From: Pseudomonadota bacterium
GTDB taxonomy: Bacteria; Pseudomonadota; Gammaproteobacteria; Xanthomonadales; Xanthomonadaceae
Length of the DNA: 33,346 nucleotides
Assembly: GCA_023423605.1 (NCBI GenBank)
Contig: JAFAFF010000309.1
Location: forward strand, 1 to 33,346
Reading direction: 5' to 3'
Position numbers and translations under genes: made by a program. Within the stretch, counting starts at the first letter, position 1. Every line of letters begins with the position of its first letter. The notes under the pieces are model-generated. The model saw nothing but the letters and a program-made list of their open reading frames with translations. It was not told the DNA's origin and ran no database searches. Positions 7,657 through 31,968 of the stretch are shown here, one piece after another.

Positions 7657-8022
7657 ATGGAAATCTTCAAAGTCTTCATGATCGAGGCAGCCCACCGCCT
7701 GCCCAACGTGCCGCCGGGCCACAAGTGTTCGCGCTTGCACGGGCATTCCTTCCGCGTGGAGCTGAAAGTTGCTGGCGAGCCTGGCGCAGACACGGGCTGG
7801 ATCATGGATTTCGGCGACGTGAAGGCGGCCTTCCAGCCTCTCTATGACCGCCTGGACCACCATTACCTCAACGACATTCCCGGCCTGGAGAATCCCACCA
7901 GCGAGAACCTGGCGGTATGGATCTGGCGCGAGCTCAAACCGTTGCTTCCCGCCCTGAGCGAGATCACCGTGCATGAAACCTGCACCTCAGGCTGTCGCTA
8001 CCGCGGGCCACAGGGCGGATGA
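7657..8022 (+). CDS. queD: 6-carboxy-5,6,7,8-tetrahydropterin synthase (QueD)
   Basis: A 121-aa member of the 6-pyruvoyl-tetrahydropterin synthase family, the same length as E. coli QueD. It converts 7,8-dihydroneopterin triphosphate to 6-carboxytetrahydropterin in the cytosolic pathway to queuosine (preQ0). Visible residues are zinc ligands H13, H28 and H30 (EAAHR and RLHGHSF), catalytic C24 in [10 protein letters not shown], the LDHHYLND histidines, PTSENLA, and the substrate glutamate in VHETCTSG. The ATG at 7657 is chosen over an upstream in-frame start at 7618 because [13 protein letters not shown] is the family N-terminus. No other queuosine gene is nearby. It is divergent from the TonB receptor. 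Confidence 0.92.
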
Positions 8023-8030
8023 CAAGTGCT

Positions 8031-8059
8031 TGATCCTGAACGGGATTCAGACAGGATCA
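8031..8059 (+). other. Hairpin just after queD
   Basis: TGATCCTG (8031-8038) and CAGGATCA (8052-8059) form a perfect 8-bp stem around a 13-nt loop, starting 9 bases after the queD stop. No T-run follows, so it may protect the 3' end or pause polymerase rather than act as a strong terminator. Confidence 0.4.
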
Positions 8060-8078
8060 GGAAATTGGCGCGACACTG

Positions 8079-8106
8079 TTGCAATGCAGCAAAAAAGGCG
8101 TATGCT
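8079..8106 (+). promoter_or_regulatory. Predicted promoter of the small RNA
   Basis: TTGCAA (8079-8084) and TATGCT (8101-8106) are separated by 16 bases, a good sigma70-like arrangement. The expected transcript start is close to 8113. Confidence 0.5.
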
Positions 8107-8113
8107 GCATTGC
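8081..8113. promoter_or_regulatory. 33-bp palindrome spanning the small-RNA promoter
   Basis: GCAATGCAGC (8081-8090) and GCTGCATTGC (8104-8113) are perfect 10-bp inverted arms with a 13-base centre. The left arm overlaps the -35 element and the right arm runs from the -10 to the expected start site, as in a repressor operator. Confidence 0.5.
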
Positions 8114-8243
8114 ATCAAGGCTGTCACGGCGGTCCATCGAAGAGGATGGCAAGCGCCTGAAGCCGCAGGACATTGCATGGGTCCCTCCCCCCGTGCAATC
8201 GCAGGACCCGGCAGATCCCTCCCTCTGTCGGGTCCTTTTTTTT
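8113..8243 (+). ncRNA. Predicted small RNA with two identical C-rich hairpin loops
   Basis: No believable protein is encoded here. A transcript from about 8113 to the terminator would be about 131 nt with three stem-loops. The first uses GGCG (8128-8131) with CGCC (8154-8157) and CCATC with GATGG around loop GAAGAG. The second (8172-8199) is a 10-bp stem with loop TCCCTCCC. The third (8204-8235) is the terminator stem, whose loop is A-TCCCTCCC-T. Two loops thus show the same octamer, complementary to GGGAGGGA and so to purine-rich ribosome sites. The layout (about 115-130 nt, three hairpins, C-rich loops) recalls the Xanthomonas small RNA sX13, but I cannot confirm homology by sequence. It converges on the asparagine-synthetase-like gene, which ends 10 bases beyond. 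Confidence 0.6.
8204..8243 (+). terminator. Strong intrinsic terminator of the small RNA
   Basis: GGACCCGGCAG (8204-8214) pairs with CTGTCGGGTCC (8225-8235) over 11 bp with one G-U pair, followed directly by eight T (8236-8243). GGGTCC at 8179-8184 could compete for the GGACCC of the left arm, an alternative fold that would open the terminator. Confidence 0.85.
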
Positions 8244-8252
8244 GCGTCGGCA

Positions 8253-10109
8253 TCAGCCATTGGACCCGCCATTGGAAGCATGGCATCGCATGCGCTCATG
8301 CCACGCCAGGTACATCAGCAGGGTCCACAGCGGGGGATGCCAGTGACGCTCTCCCTGCTGGAACCGCTCCCACATCCATCGCACGCGCGCATGGTCGCGG
8401 ATTTCCGCTGCCGTCAACGAAGCGGGCGCCAGCAAGGCGTGTGCCCATTCCCGCAACGGTCCACGCAGCCAGGCGCTGATGGGCGGGCCAAAGCCGCGCT
8501 TGGGCCGTTGCACCAGCGGGGCTGGAAGGTAGCGGCAGAGCAGCTGTTTGAGTATCCATTTCTGTTCTCCGCGGCGCAGCTTGAGATCCACCGGGAGCTG
8601 CCAGGCGAACTCGATCACACGCTTGTCCAGTAGCGGTGACGCCGTCACCAGGCCACATGCAGCCGCAGCAGCGCCGACCTTGGTGAGGATTCCATTGCCC
8701 AGTTCCATGGTGAAATCCAGATACTGCACCTGGTCGATGAGCTCTCCGCCGACCAGCGGCAGCGATACATCCCGGTAAGCCGTCCGCGGCTCGATCACGC
8801 CGCCCAGCAGCAGTGCAGGCTCGCGCCAGCGGGAAACACGCATCAGGTAATGATGGGCGGCACCCGTTCCGGACAGCTCCGCGGCCAGCGCCTGCATGCC
8901 ACCGGCACGCCAGCGTTCCCTGTCGCTCTGGTCATGGCGGGCAAACCAGTTCCGCAACCATCCAGGCAGTAATGCACTGCAACGGGCATTGCGTACGGCG
9001 CGCAGATAAGCGCCGTGGCCGCAGAACAGCTCATCCCCCCCATCGCCGGTGAGCGCCGTGAGGCAGCGCCCGGACAACAGCTCGCTGGCCATCAGGGTGG
9101 GAAGCTGCGAGGCGTCGGCAAAAGGCTCGGCCCATACGTCGGGAATGCGCTGTACGTGCTCCAGCACGGCACCATCATCAAATACAACCGTTTCATGGTT
9201 GACCCCCAAGTGGCGCGCGATGGCCACCATCCACTCCCGCTCGTCATGCTCGGGAGCGTGAAACCCTATGCCGACAGTCGTCACCGGCAGATCGGACTGC
9301 ATCTGCAGCAGGGCGGTCACCAGCGAGGAATCGGTACCCCCGGACAGGAATGCCCCCGCTCGCGTCGCTCCGCCCGTGGCCGCCGATGCCTCCACCGCAC
9401 GCTGCAACCGGAGATGGAGACCTTCGATGGCCACTTCGGCCGGAATCGCGGACCGGCGCACCAGAGCGTCGCCATAGACGGACGCCGCATCCCAGAAGCG
9501 CAGCTGATCGATGCCCGGGATGTGGTACTGCGGACCACGCATTGCATCCTTCCGCGACAGTTCGAGCATGCTGACCGGCAACAACTTGTAGATGCCCTGG
9601 TGAATGCTGTACGGCGCAGGCACATGGCCGTGCCGCAGGAACAGGGCCAGCGCACCACGGTCCACCGGAATGTTCCAGCGCGACGATGCCCGCAGTTCCC
9701 CCAGGTCGCTGGAGAACACCAGCCGGCCATCGACCCATCCGTAGTACAGCGCGCGCTGCCCGACGGGATCGCGGGCCAACCCCAGGCGTTGCGTCTCGCA
9801 GTCCCAATGCGCCATCACGAACGCACCGTCCATGTCCGCAAGCGCCGCGCGCAGGCCACGCTCGGCGATGGTGTCGGCGAGATCCGCGGCCGCAACACCT
9901 TGCCTTGAGCGTCCCATGCGCACCCTCCCCTGCATGGCCACGATATGGCGTCCACAACGGGAAACGCCGGCACCCTCCCCACAGGTGACGGCAAAACCGG
10001 CCAGCGCGTCTGTCCATCCCGGTCCGGCCGCCACCGCCTGGCCTTCCACCCCGTGCAGGCCATTGCCCCAGGCACCGCAGAGCGGTTCCCAGCTTCCTGT
10101 CAGTTCCAC
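8253..10109 (-). CDS. Asparagine-synthetase-like ATP-dependent amide ligase lacking the glutaminase cysteine
   Basis: About 618 aa. The C-terminal synthetase domain is intact: PPi-loop SGGTDSS (256-262), TTVGIGFHAPEHDE, a WAEPFADASQLPT segment and LTGDGGDELFCGHG. The N-terminal region keeps the outline of a class II glutaminase (DGAFVMAHWD, LARDPVGQRALYY). It has no MCGI start, so the nucleophilic Cys is missing, and no NGEI-like segment. Relatives of this kind include sugar-modifying WbpS-type proteins and lasso-peptide cyclases; neither partner set is present. The GTG at 10109 is preferred because GAGG lies 9 bases upstream. The longer TTG start at 10148 falls inside the terminator hairpin of the upstream gene. 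It would use ATP to activate a carboxylate, probably with ammonia or another amine; the substrate is unknown. Confidence 0.7.
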   Translation of the reverse strand: MELTGSWEPLCGAWGNGLHGVEGQAVAAGPGWTDALAGFAVTCGEGAGVSRCGRHIVAMQGRVRMGRSRQGVAAADLADTIAERGLRAALADMDGAFVMAHWDCETQRLGLARDPVGQRALYYGWVDGRLVFSSDLGELRASSRWNIPVDRGALALFLRHGHVPAPYSIHQGIYKLLPVSMLELSRKDAMRGPQYHIPGIDQLRFWDAASVYGDALVRRSAIPAEVAIEGLHLRLQRAVEASAATGGATRAGAFLSGGTDSSLVTALLQMQSDLPVTTVGIGFHAPEHDEREWMVAIARHLGVNHETVVFDDGAVLEHVQRIPDVWAEPFADASQLPTLMASELLSGRCLTALTGDGGDELFCGHGAYLRAVRNARCSALLPGWLRNWFARHDQSDRERWRAGGMQALAAELSGTGAAHHYLMRVSRWREPALLLGGVIEPRTAYRDVSLPLVGGELIDQVQYLDFTMELGNGILTKVGAAAAACGLVTASPLLDKRVIEFAWQLPVDLKLRRGEQKWILKQLLCRYLPAPLVQRPKRGFGPPISAWLRGPLREWAHALLAPASLTAAEIRDHARVRWMWERFQQGERHWHPPLWTLLMYLAWHERMRCHASNGGSNG

Positions 10110-10130
10110 AGCGATTGCCCTCGCCCGATG

Positions 10131-10158
10131 AAGAAACCGGCTGCGCAAGGCAGCCGGT
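10131..10158 (-). terminator. Intrinsic terminator after the outer-membrane protein gene
   Basis: Perfect 9-bp arms GCAGCCGGT (10150-10158) and ACCGGCTGC (10136-10144) surround a 5-base loop. On the minus strand they are followed by a T-rich TTCTT (10135-10131). It lies 24 bases after the stop of the beta-barrel gene and separates it from the downstream synthetase-like gene. Confidence 0.65.
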
Positions 10159-20193: not shown

Positions 20194-20199
20194 TAGACT
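20194..20199 (+). promoter_or_regulatory. Likely -10 of the btuB transcript (TAGACT)
   Basis: TAGACT lies just upstream of the riboswitch aptamer and would start transcription near 20206. The -35 about 17 bases upstream is not recognisable. Confidence 0.35.
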
Positions 20200-20205
20200 G
20201 CGCGC

Positions 20206-20400
20206 ACTTCCAGGTGACCTGCGGCATGCGCCGGCAGGTTGAAACGGGAAGCCGGTGACGCATCGTTCGATGCCACTCCGGCGCTGCCCCCGCAACGGTA
20301 AGCACGTCACAAGCGGACATCACGCCACTGTGCCCTGGCATGGGAAGGCGTCCGCCCGGTGGTTTCCACCGACGGCAAGCCCGGAGACCGGCCAGGAAGC
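20206..20400 (+). promoter_or_regulatory. Cobalamin (AdoCbl) riboswitch upstream of btuB
   Basis: The conserved aptamer blocks appear in order: AGGTGACCTGCGG near 20211, AACGGGAAGCCGGTG near 20246, GCTGCCCCCGCAACGGTAAG near 20283, the B12 box GCCACTG at 20324-20330, and AGCCCGGAGACCGGCC near 20378. The aptamer is followed by about 130 bases before the btuB start. Binding of adenosylcobalamin should turn btuB off. No T-run follows a hairpin there, so control at translation start is more likely than termination. Confidence 0.92.
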
Positions 20401-20491
20401 CCATAGGTTGCGATGCGGTGGGCATCGGCGACGGCCACCGCGTCCGCGTGGTGCGCATCGCCCTGTCCTTCGCGCCGCAGCTCCCCTTGCC

Positions 20492-31200: not shown

Positions 31201-31395
31201 AGCATGGTCCAGAAAGCGTATTCGCAGCGTCAAGCGCCAACTGTCATGCACGAAGCCCGGCCGATGGGCCTGGCGATGAATTGACCGTAAGCGTGCGCCG
31301 GGACGCCAGCGCGCTTCCCTTGCCCGCCGGCAGGGCCAGCCCCACACTATCCTTACCTACCATGCATGCGCCCCCGTGGCGCTGGAGCCAAGGTC

Positions 31396-31968
31396 ATGAA
31401 CCGTCGCTCGATATGCAGCCTGCTGCTGGCAGGCGCCCTTGCCATCGTGCCGCTGCTGGCCACCGCCGCACCGCGCACGGTGACCGATCCCCAGGCACCG
31501 CGTGCGCTGGAAGCCGCCGGGCCAGTGAACGTGCGGTGGAACGATCCAAAGACATTCACCGAACTGCGCAGCAGCCGTAACCGGTTCGAGGCCGAGCGCG
31601 GCGACTGGGTGCGCCAGCTGGCCGACTACATCCGTACTTCCGCCACCAAGCAGCTGCAGCCCGGCCAGACACTGGATGTGACTGTGCTGGACATCAAGCG
31701 CGCGGGCGATTTCGAGCCGTGGCATGGCGCGCGCGCGGACGATATCCGCATCATGCGCGACATCTACCCGCCGAAGATCGCGCTGCAATACAGCCTGAAA
31801 GGGGCGGACGGACGAATTCTCGGCGAAGGCGAAGCGACGCTGCGCGATACCGGCTTCATGCACGGCAGCGTGGGACTGCAGAGCAGCAGCGATCCATTGC
31901 GTTACGAGAAGAAGCTGATCGACGATTGGGTGCGCCGCGACCTGGCCAGGGAAATCGCCGCGCGCTGA
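31396..31968 (+). CDS. DUF3016-family exported protein
   Basis: 190 aa with a signal peptide (MNRRSICSLLLAGALAIVPL, cleavage near TAA). The mature part has VNVRWNDPKTFTELRSSR, LADYIRTSATKQLQPGQTLDVTVLDIKRAG and IRIMRDIYPPKIALQYSL. It closes with LIDDWVRRDLAREIA. These match the DUF3016 family of proteobacterial periplasmic proteins, whose function is not known. The ATG at 31396 has GGAG/AAGG upstream; the in-frame ATG at 31366 would put extra residues before the signal peptide. A possible -10 TATCCT lies at 31348-31353. The gene is divergent from the hybrid kinase. Confidence 0.82.
   Translation: MNRRSICSLLLAGALAIVPLLATAAPRTVTDPQAPRALEAAGPVNVRWNDPKTFTELRSSRNRFEAERGDWVRQLADYIRTSATKQLQPGQTLDVTVLDIKRAGDFEPWHGARADDIRIMRDIYPPKIALQYSLKGADGRILGEGEATLRDTGFMHGSVGLQSSSDPLRYEKKLIDDWVRRDLAREIAAR

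Follow-up and report, generated by a model that had tools for sequence, protein, structure and literature searches.

Features of the locus downstream of queD

The window analysed here is the whole stretch of 33,346 nt from contig JAFAFF010000309.1 of a bacterium of the family Xanthomonadaceae (assembly GCA_023423605.1). On its plus strand the gene queD is followed by a promoter-like stretch, a twin hairpin and a T tract, facing a convergent gene:

7657..8022, plus strand: queD, 6-pyruvoyl-tetrahydropterin synthase family (PF01242, 129.6 bits), the conserved upstream neighbour
8077..8091, plus strand: PhaR-like box 1 (TGTTGCAATGCAGCA) over the −35 element, with the core YGCRNYGCR
8079..8084, plus strand: −35-like TTGCAA, kept among relatives, weak against the consensus
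8101..8106, plus strand: −10-like TATGCT, kept among relatives, weak against the consensus
8103..8117, plus strand: PhaR-like box 2 (TGCTGCATTGCATCA), a core match that overlaps the −10 element and the probable start site
8119..8164, plus strand: 5′ stem of the predicted fold, a variable spacer, not conserved
8172..8199, plus strand: conserved hairpin 1, loop TCCCTCCC at 8182-8189 (fold, alignment)
8203..8236, plus strand: conserved hairpin 2 and intrinsic terminator, loop TCCCTCCC at 8216-8223 (fold, alignment, terminator scan)
8236..8243, plus strand: tract of eight T, predicted 3′ end (sequence, terminator scan)
8253..10148, minus strand: neighbouring convergent gene of asparagine-synthase type (PF00733, 256 bits)

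Hairpin 1 has a stem of 10 bp and hairpin 2 a stem of 13 bp. As the preliminary description of this DNA had claimed, both loops contain the same octamer; each 8-nt loop is exactly TCCCTCCC, and these are the only two copies in the window. The octamer alone is unremarkable by chance (at least two copies in 26 of 100 shuffles of the window); beyond chance is that both copies each fill a whole hairpin loop. The 131-nt segment 8113-8243 has a predicted folding energy of −62.3 kcal/mol (z = −4.97), a value as low being reached by none of 200 shuffles, and in the predicted ensemble both loops are unpaired with a probability of 1.0. The strong intrinsic terminator with eight T was likewise recovered: hairpin 2 with its T tract is the sole terminator found by the terminator scan in 7900-8400, and lies on the plus strand.

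Three stems had originally been described. The segment does fold in this way, with 8119-8164 as the 5′ stem, but only the two hairpins are conserved. Four relatives (L154, L155, L156 and L015) have hairpin 1 about 20 nt past the −10 element and leave no room for the first stem, which therefore is not part of the conserved element; we rejected it as a family feature and regard it as a spacer that varies among relatives.

Conservation and covariation of the twin hairpin

A protein search with queD was used to collect related loci, of which the best 80 of at least 575 confirmed relatives were taken. A twin hairpin lies 3′ of queD in 42 of these 80 loci; one of initially 43 rows (L049) was dropped as a chance pair within coding sequence, and L074 was kept as an element without an assignable phasin gene. 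Alignment A2 comprised 34 sequences (30 distinct), namely the window and 33 of the 42 loci, nine near-duplicate loci being left out. Among the 23 base pairs, 13 had changed on both sides, and 93.9% of the cells were paired. For all five covariation measures none of 500 shuffles scored as high, and no control structure slid along the alignment came near. The loops vary slightly in this wider set: the first base of loop 2 is A instead of T in several sequences, TCCCTCCT and TCCCCTCCC occur as further variants, and hairpin 2 of L036 and L072 has CCCCCACG. Compensatory changes in the stems together with highly conserved loops, the absence of which had been named beforehand as evidence against a small RNA, are hence both found in the relatives. 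The twin hairpin is a conserved, covarying RNA element of Xanthomonadaceae with two conserved stems.

The 80 queD loci and the window (0.98 Mb, both strands) were also scanned for hairpins with a Watson-Crick stem of at least 8 bp and an 8-nt loop. This yielded 354 hairpins, each counted on both strands. The commonest loops were TCCCTCCC and its antisense reading with 53 instances each, and all 53 TCCCTCCC loops fall within the twin-hairpin element, spread over 38 loci. The window's own hairpins were missed by this strict scan because their stems hold G-T pairs.

With the covariance model R1, matches were obtained in 196 of 395 genomes of the family, including named Xanthomonas and Stenotrophomonas loci. 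In the order, 77 of 348 genomes match, and the 11 genomes new to the order list score 34-41 bits; in the class there are seven matches among 369 genomes, four strong (all contained in the family list) and three weak.

Association with phasin genes and repeated phasin loss

Of the 42 element-bearing queD loci, 39 have a phasin gene between queD and the hairpins, and there the element forms its 3′UTR and terminator, with the phasin stop codon 12-53 nt upstream of hairpin 1. The identity of the phasin was supported by a match to PF09361 in all three tested cases. No phasin gene was found at the queD element loci L006 (Stenotrophomonas chelatiphaga DSM 21508) and L015 (UBA4619); PF09361 had no match in their genomes (G001 and G002) and one match each in seven other genomes. 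The window is of the same type as L006 and L015: the element does not follow a phasin there, the gene being absent from the locus as searched over its 33 kb. A weak match at 31319-31510 (E 0.004), the only one elsewhere in the window, overlaps unrelated frames and was rejected, and so was the idea of a phasin remnant in the 5′ segment 8119-8164, which has no similarity to phasin DNA.

A phasin profile built from 17 sequences matched in 333 of the 395 family genomes. We compared it with 150 places matched by R1; 46 of the 196 R1-matching genomes have no place among them. Phasin coordinates were listed for 108 of the 150 places, and in all 108 the element lies 14-126 nt downstream of the phasin gene on the same strand. 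At 25 places the genome has a phasin for which no coordinates were listed; at 17 the genome gave no phasin match. Sixteen of these 17 places were fetched, the seventeenth belonging to the genome of L006. In fifteen of the fetched loci, as well as in L006, L015 and the window, queD is followed by either one or two PhaR-like boxes, then a spacer and finally the twin hairpin. L166, the remaining fetched locus, is weak, and its genome measures 2.4 Mb. In L154, L155, L156 and L015 hairpin 1 starts about 8 nt after box 2. Three others, L151-L153, carry a deletion scar: the phasin frame is gone, the promoter and approximately the last nine phasin codons remain, the stop codon TGA has become TGG, and three phasin-bearing neighbours have an identical hairpin region.

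A queD tree computed from 351 bases places the phasin-less loci in six clades (Fitch count 6; printed node supports 0.75-0.998), and the window forms a phasin-less clade of its own. The deepest of these clades could alternatively never have had a phasin. Regarding polyhydroxyalkanoate synthesis, PF07167 matched in 6 of 11 genomes, two of them over the cut-off, and was replaced by TIGR01836, with which class III PhaC exceeded the cut-off in 17 of the 18 genomes without a phasin (17 and G002), the exception being G020 with its 2.4 Mb. At G022:C1:2856759-2857801 the PHA synthase profile matches in two adjoining pieces in different frames.

Promoter and twin hairpin thus remain at the window and 17 other loci where the phasin is gone. 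The retention of the hairpin RNA without the phasin suggests that the RNA itself has a job. Another explanation is that the element is only a tandem terminator and 3′ stabiliser of the phasin mRNA, left over in phasin-less genomes and without action in trans. It accounts for the strength of hairpin 2 as a terminator and for the position of the element behind the phasin in all 108 placed cases. We nevertheless judge it unlikely, since a terminator needs no particular loop and the loops of the phasin-less loci are constant. The phasin-less set comprised 18 sequences (15 distinct), the window included and L166 (G020) left out as weak. Loop 1 is TCCCTCCC in all 18, and loop 2 reads CCCTCCC, preceded by T or A, likewise in 18 of 18, while the stems change with compensation: nine of 23 pairs had changed on both sides (5 of 500 shuffles as high) and 96.5% of the cells were paired (0 of 500), one measure, that of further pair types, not being above the shuffles (481 of 500 as high). 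Against a mere terminator speak also the persistence of promoter and hairpins without phasin in six clades and the status of TCCCTCCC as the commonest 8-nt hairpin loop in the scanned DNA, confined to the element.

Promoter and PhaR-like boxes

The promoter pair proposed earlier, TTGCAA and TATGCT separated by 16 bases, is conserved in the relatives; as a promoter sequence it is weak, agreeing with the consensus at 8 of 12 positions and giving no call by a promoter scanner. Because of this weak match its assignment rests on conservation: the stretch around TTGTTGCA..GGCGTATGCTGCATTGCATCA is common to the window and to phasin-bearing and phasin-less loci.

Over the −35 element and over the −10 element and start lie two palindromic cores of the form YGCRNYGCR, at a distance of 26 or 27 bp. 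Among the 39 phasin loci, 35 agree with the strict core in both boxes and 4 in one; among the 18 phasin-less loci the numbers are 13 and 5. Pairs of cores at a distance of 22-30 bp are no great rarity, occurring 100 times in 983 kb, the promoter locus included, and the window holds one such pair, at the promoter. These boxes resemble the PhaR motif of Sinorhizobium meliloti, in which, according to the available text of PMC12542648, PhaR, which polyhydroxybutyrate (PHB) sequesters, represses phasin genes as well as the sRNA gene mmgR. PhaR was found in all 11 genomes tested, two of them phasin-less, and in all 11 genomes examined a PhaR-type core is located 44-47 nt upstream of phaR; these 11 cores are not independent because the genomes are related. 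The presence of boxes in the promoter (8077-8091 and 8103-8117) suggests that the twin-hairpin promoter would be under PhaR control.

There is a precedent for an RNA gene with such control. MmgR (ar8) of S. meliloti is described, in the portions available of PMC12542648 and PMC8401924, as an RNA gene that PhaR controls and that has a bearing on PHB storage; it has 77 nt, is Hfq-dependent and is reported to restrain phasins (PMC8401924). Unlike a member of that family, the window has no MmgR-type Rfam match, and the likeness lies in the putative control by PhaR. As to Hfq, the window element shows its T8 tract. For a small protein gene and RNAs sharing one processed transcript, the CcaF1-CcsR operon of Rhodobacter sphaeroides, as presented in part of PMC10253847, provides a precedent: the small protein gene and the CcsR RNAs are transcribed together and processed by RNase E. 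It differs by its four RNAs, its RpoH-type promoter and its DUF1127 protein (PMC10253847), and CcsR1 (RF02791) is not among the Rfam matches of the window.

The preliminary description mentions neither the link to phasins nor the PhaR-like boxes, nor that the phasin was lost repeatedly.

Comparison with sX13 and other known RNAs

Small RNAs with C-rich loops are already known, and the element had initially been suggested to be an RNA of the sX13 type or an undescribed relative. The first of these suggestions did not hold. RF02232 (sX13) is absent among the 14 Rfam matches to 7980-8300 at E up to 10, the element lies after queD and not after polA, it has two conserved stems instead of three, and five of five genomes that carry the twin hairpin elsewhere have their sX13 at polA. 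We therefore rejected sX13 membership. The designation as an undescribed relative fits, because the window element stays below the threshold of every sRNA family of Rfam. The window's sole Rfam match at gathering level is a cobalamin riboswitch at 20195-20410 (107.2 bits).

According to the accessible part of PMC3771888, sX13 follows polA, has 115 nt, three stems and loops with 4C or 5C, and acts on G-rich sites near start codons. The two RNAs have in common the C-rich hairpin loops, the occurrence in Xanthomonadaceae and G-rich motifs near starts as targets, predicted ones in the case of the window element. They differ in that the element of the window type follows queD or a phasin gene and occurs alongside sX13; its conserved stems number two, with loops of the TCCCTCCC type. 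On stems 2-3 of sX13 model R1 gives 32-41 bits at five of five polA loci, compared to 86 bits for the window, so a distant relation or a common design is possible. Descent from sX13 by duplication and divergence, with its targets retained, would explain this score, the C-rich loops over a terminator in both RNAs and the action of sX13, too, on G-rich sites near start codons (as stated in the available sections of PMC3771888). We hold such an origin to be improbable: the window gave no RF02232 match up to an E of 10, the locus, loops and upstream gene differ, sX13 is separately present, and the R1 score may be due to GC stems of a generic kind, to CCUCC and to the U tail.

The best Rfam match of the window is ar14 (RF02344) with 27.0 bits (E 0.0024), below the gathering score of 58.8; L005 reaches 31.3 bits. 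From what PMC10746234 offers in its available part, ar14/NfeR1 and the cuckoo RNAs are alphaproteobacterial, have three CCUCCUCCC motifs and repeat one anti-Shine-Dalgarno (aSD) motif while the stems differ. The window element, too, repeats an aSD motif in each loop, with covarying stems and mostly unchanged loops in 34 sequences; this likeness is one of working principle only.

Several further C-rich RNAs were noticed. At L173 1495-1566 (G032:C11:208794-208856) another C-rich hairpin pair with a terminator follows the end of an open frame, the sX13 of that genome being located elsewhere, and secondary R1 matches of similar strength occur in G129, G171, G249, G237 and G246, some of which may be sX13. 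The class search gave a C-rich RNA at L170 1458-1579 (G669:C48) that stays below threshold with the models of anti-hemB, ar14, sX13 and CcsR1, scores hinting at a common design of these families. The X. euvesicatoria element at L026 6894-6968 scores 25.2 bits with anti-hemB (RF02837), for which 49.5 are needed.

CsrA/RsmA-type proteins prefer GGA, and the antisense loops read GGGAGGGA, the exact complement of the plus-strand loops, which holds GGA; a minus-strand decoy for such a protein, possibly produced by read-through from the convergent gene at 8253-10148, is nevertheless highly improbable given that the T tract, the conserved promoter stretch and the sole terminator found in 7900-8400 are all on the plus strand.

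Candidate targets at ribosome sites

Both loops contain CCUCC, the core of the anti-Shine-Dalgarno sequence of 16S rRNA. The preliminary description had predicted an action in trans on ribosome sites resembling GGGAGGGA, and such sites are plausible targets. In three genomes GGGAGGGA occurs 4-9 nt before ATG at 22 places, compared to nine for the reversed pattern. Three of the eight frames of at least 100 aa at these places read as TonB-dependent receptors, which gave the hypothesis of receptors as targets. In twelve new genomes the same search (GGGAGGGA-N4-9-ATG) yielded 111 places versus 18 for the reversed pattern. The exact sites are few, with 4 to 17 places per genome.

From the total of 133 places 127 were read, three overlapping duplicates and three antisense copies of the loop being left out. 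A frame of at least 100 aa follows at 66 of the 127 sites, some of these frames probably not being genes. The TonB Plug domain was found in 20 of the 66 frames, the glycoside hydrolase domains GH43, GH10 and GH3 in three, one and one, respectively. In the new genomes receptors made up 17 of 58 frames (a split made by reading translations); in a 1.6-Mb sample of G022 they made up 11 of 1310 (p = 6e-18). These background frames were our own calls of the longest non-overlapping frames, and the receptors among them were found with a profile built on the TonB receptor of the window together with the 20 receptors that follow the sites. TIGR01782 matched all ten receptors tested, five over the cut-off although the pieces were truncated, and in six genomes the exact site precedes the same orthologue, with 66-97% identity to L179. 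At L190 1501 (G022:C1:3449360-3449375) a start resembling that of a TonB receptor is preceded by GGGAGGGA; its frame stops after 29 aa, whereas that of the relative L301 continues.

The computed energy of the 8-bp duplex between loop and site is −15.5 kcal/mol. The net pairing energy is alike for both groups, with medians of −8.9 kcal/mol at receptor sites and −9.0 kcal/mol at the other sites. A control with ordinary ribosome sites, drawn from one genome and too small to prove specificity, gave GGAGG-type sites before 3 of 11 TonB receptors in the G022 sample, compared to 2.5% of the other frames; the full 8-mer GGGAGGGA was found before none of the frames of this sample. Strong sites are therefore commoner before TonB receptors in general, which weakens the evidence for targeting, and strong ribosome sites alone may make up part of the receptor signal. 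When GGGAGGGA was compared with the GGAGG class across different genomes, receptors made up 17 of 58 versus 3 of 35 frames (p = 0.015), a modest excess. We infer from these sites that receptors are targets, as a prediction. Genes of the window itself were rejected as targets, the single site with seven of eight matches (9929, minus strand) lying inside the asparagine-synthase frame.

A putative PhaR-controlled RNA and its meaning

We consider it fairly probable that the locus encodes a PhaR-controlled RNA that would mask, with its C-rich loops, the ribosome sites of nutrient-uptake genes during carbon storage; its transcription, binding by PhaR, pairing and targets are predictions from the DNA. 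The gene would give a small RNA of about 130 nt or less, with a probable functional core of two hairpins, each presenting UCCCUCCC in its loop, and with hairpin 2 presumably doubling as terminator. Its ancestry in Stenotrophomonas lineages would be the 3′UTR of a phasin mRNA. As the window locus no longer has the phasin reading frame, the promoter is proposed to drive the RNA alone. PhaR would occupy both promoter boxes and come off once polyhydroxybutyrate granules form; the RNA may accordingly be made while carbon is stored. The loops would then pair with GGGAGGGA-type ribosome sites and lower translation, mainly that of TonB-dependent nutrient receptors and of some glycan-degrading enzymes.

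A further-reaching version, which we put forward tentatively, holds that the RNA, and not the phasin, is the selected function of the locus: PHB-sensing PhaR would drive a twin-loop RNA that damps TonB receptors and glycan-degrading enzymes as stores fill, and that began as a phasin 3′UTR of Stenotrophomonas lineages and was repeatedly freed by deletion of its own coding sequence.

We found no description of the twin-hairpin RNA in the titles and abstract beginnings of the literature on phasin and PhaR, sRNAs, Xanthomonas, Stenotrophomonas and TonB, and it may be present as an unnamed entry in an RNA-seq list. The word phasin does not occur in the main text of a study on mRNA-derived sRNAs of Xanthomonas (PMC7694677).

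The close relatives with and without the coding sequence, among them one lineage with a visible scar, would let one follow, as a natural experiment, the origin of a stand-alone sRNA from an mRNA tail. The job of the RNA is perhaps to tune nutrient uptake to stored carbon. If this is true, an RNA in a phasin 3′UTR behind a PhaR-type operator would link carbon storage directly to the control of nutrient uptake.
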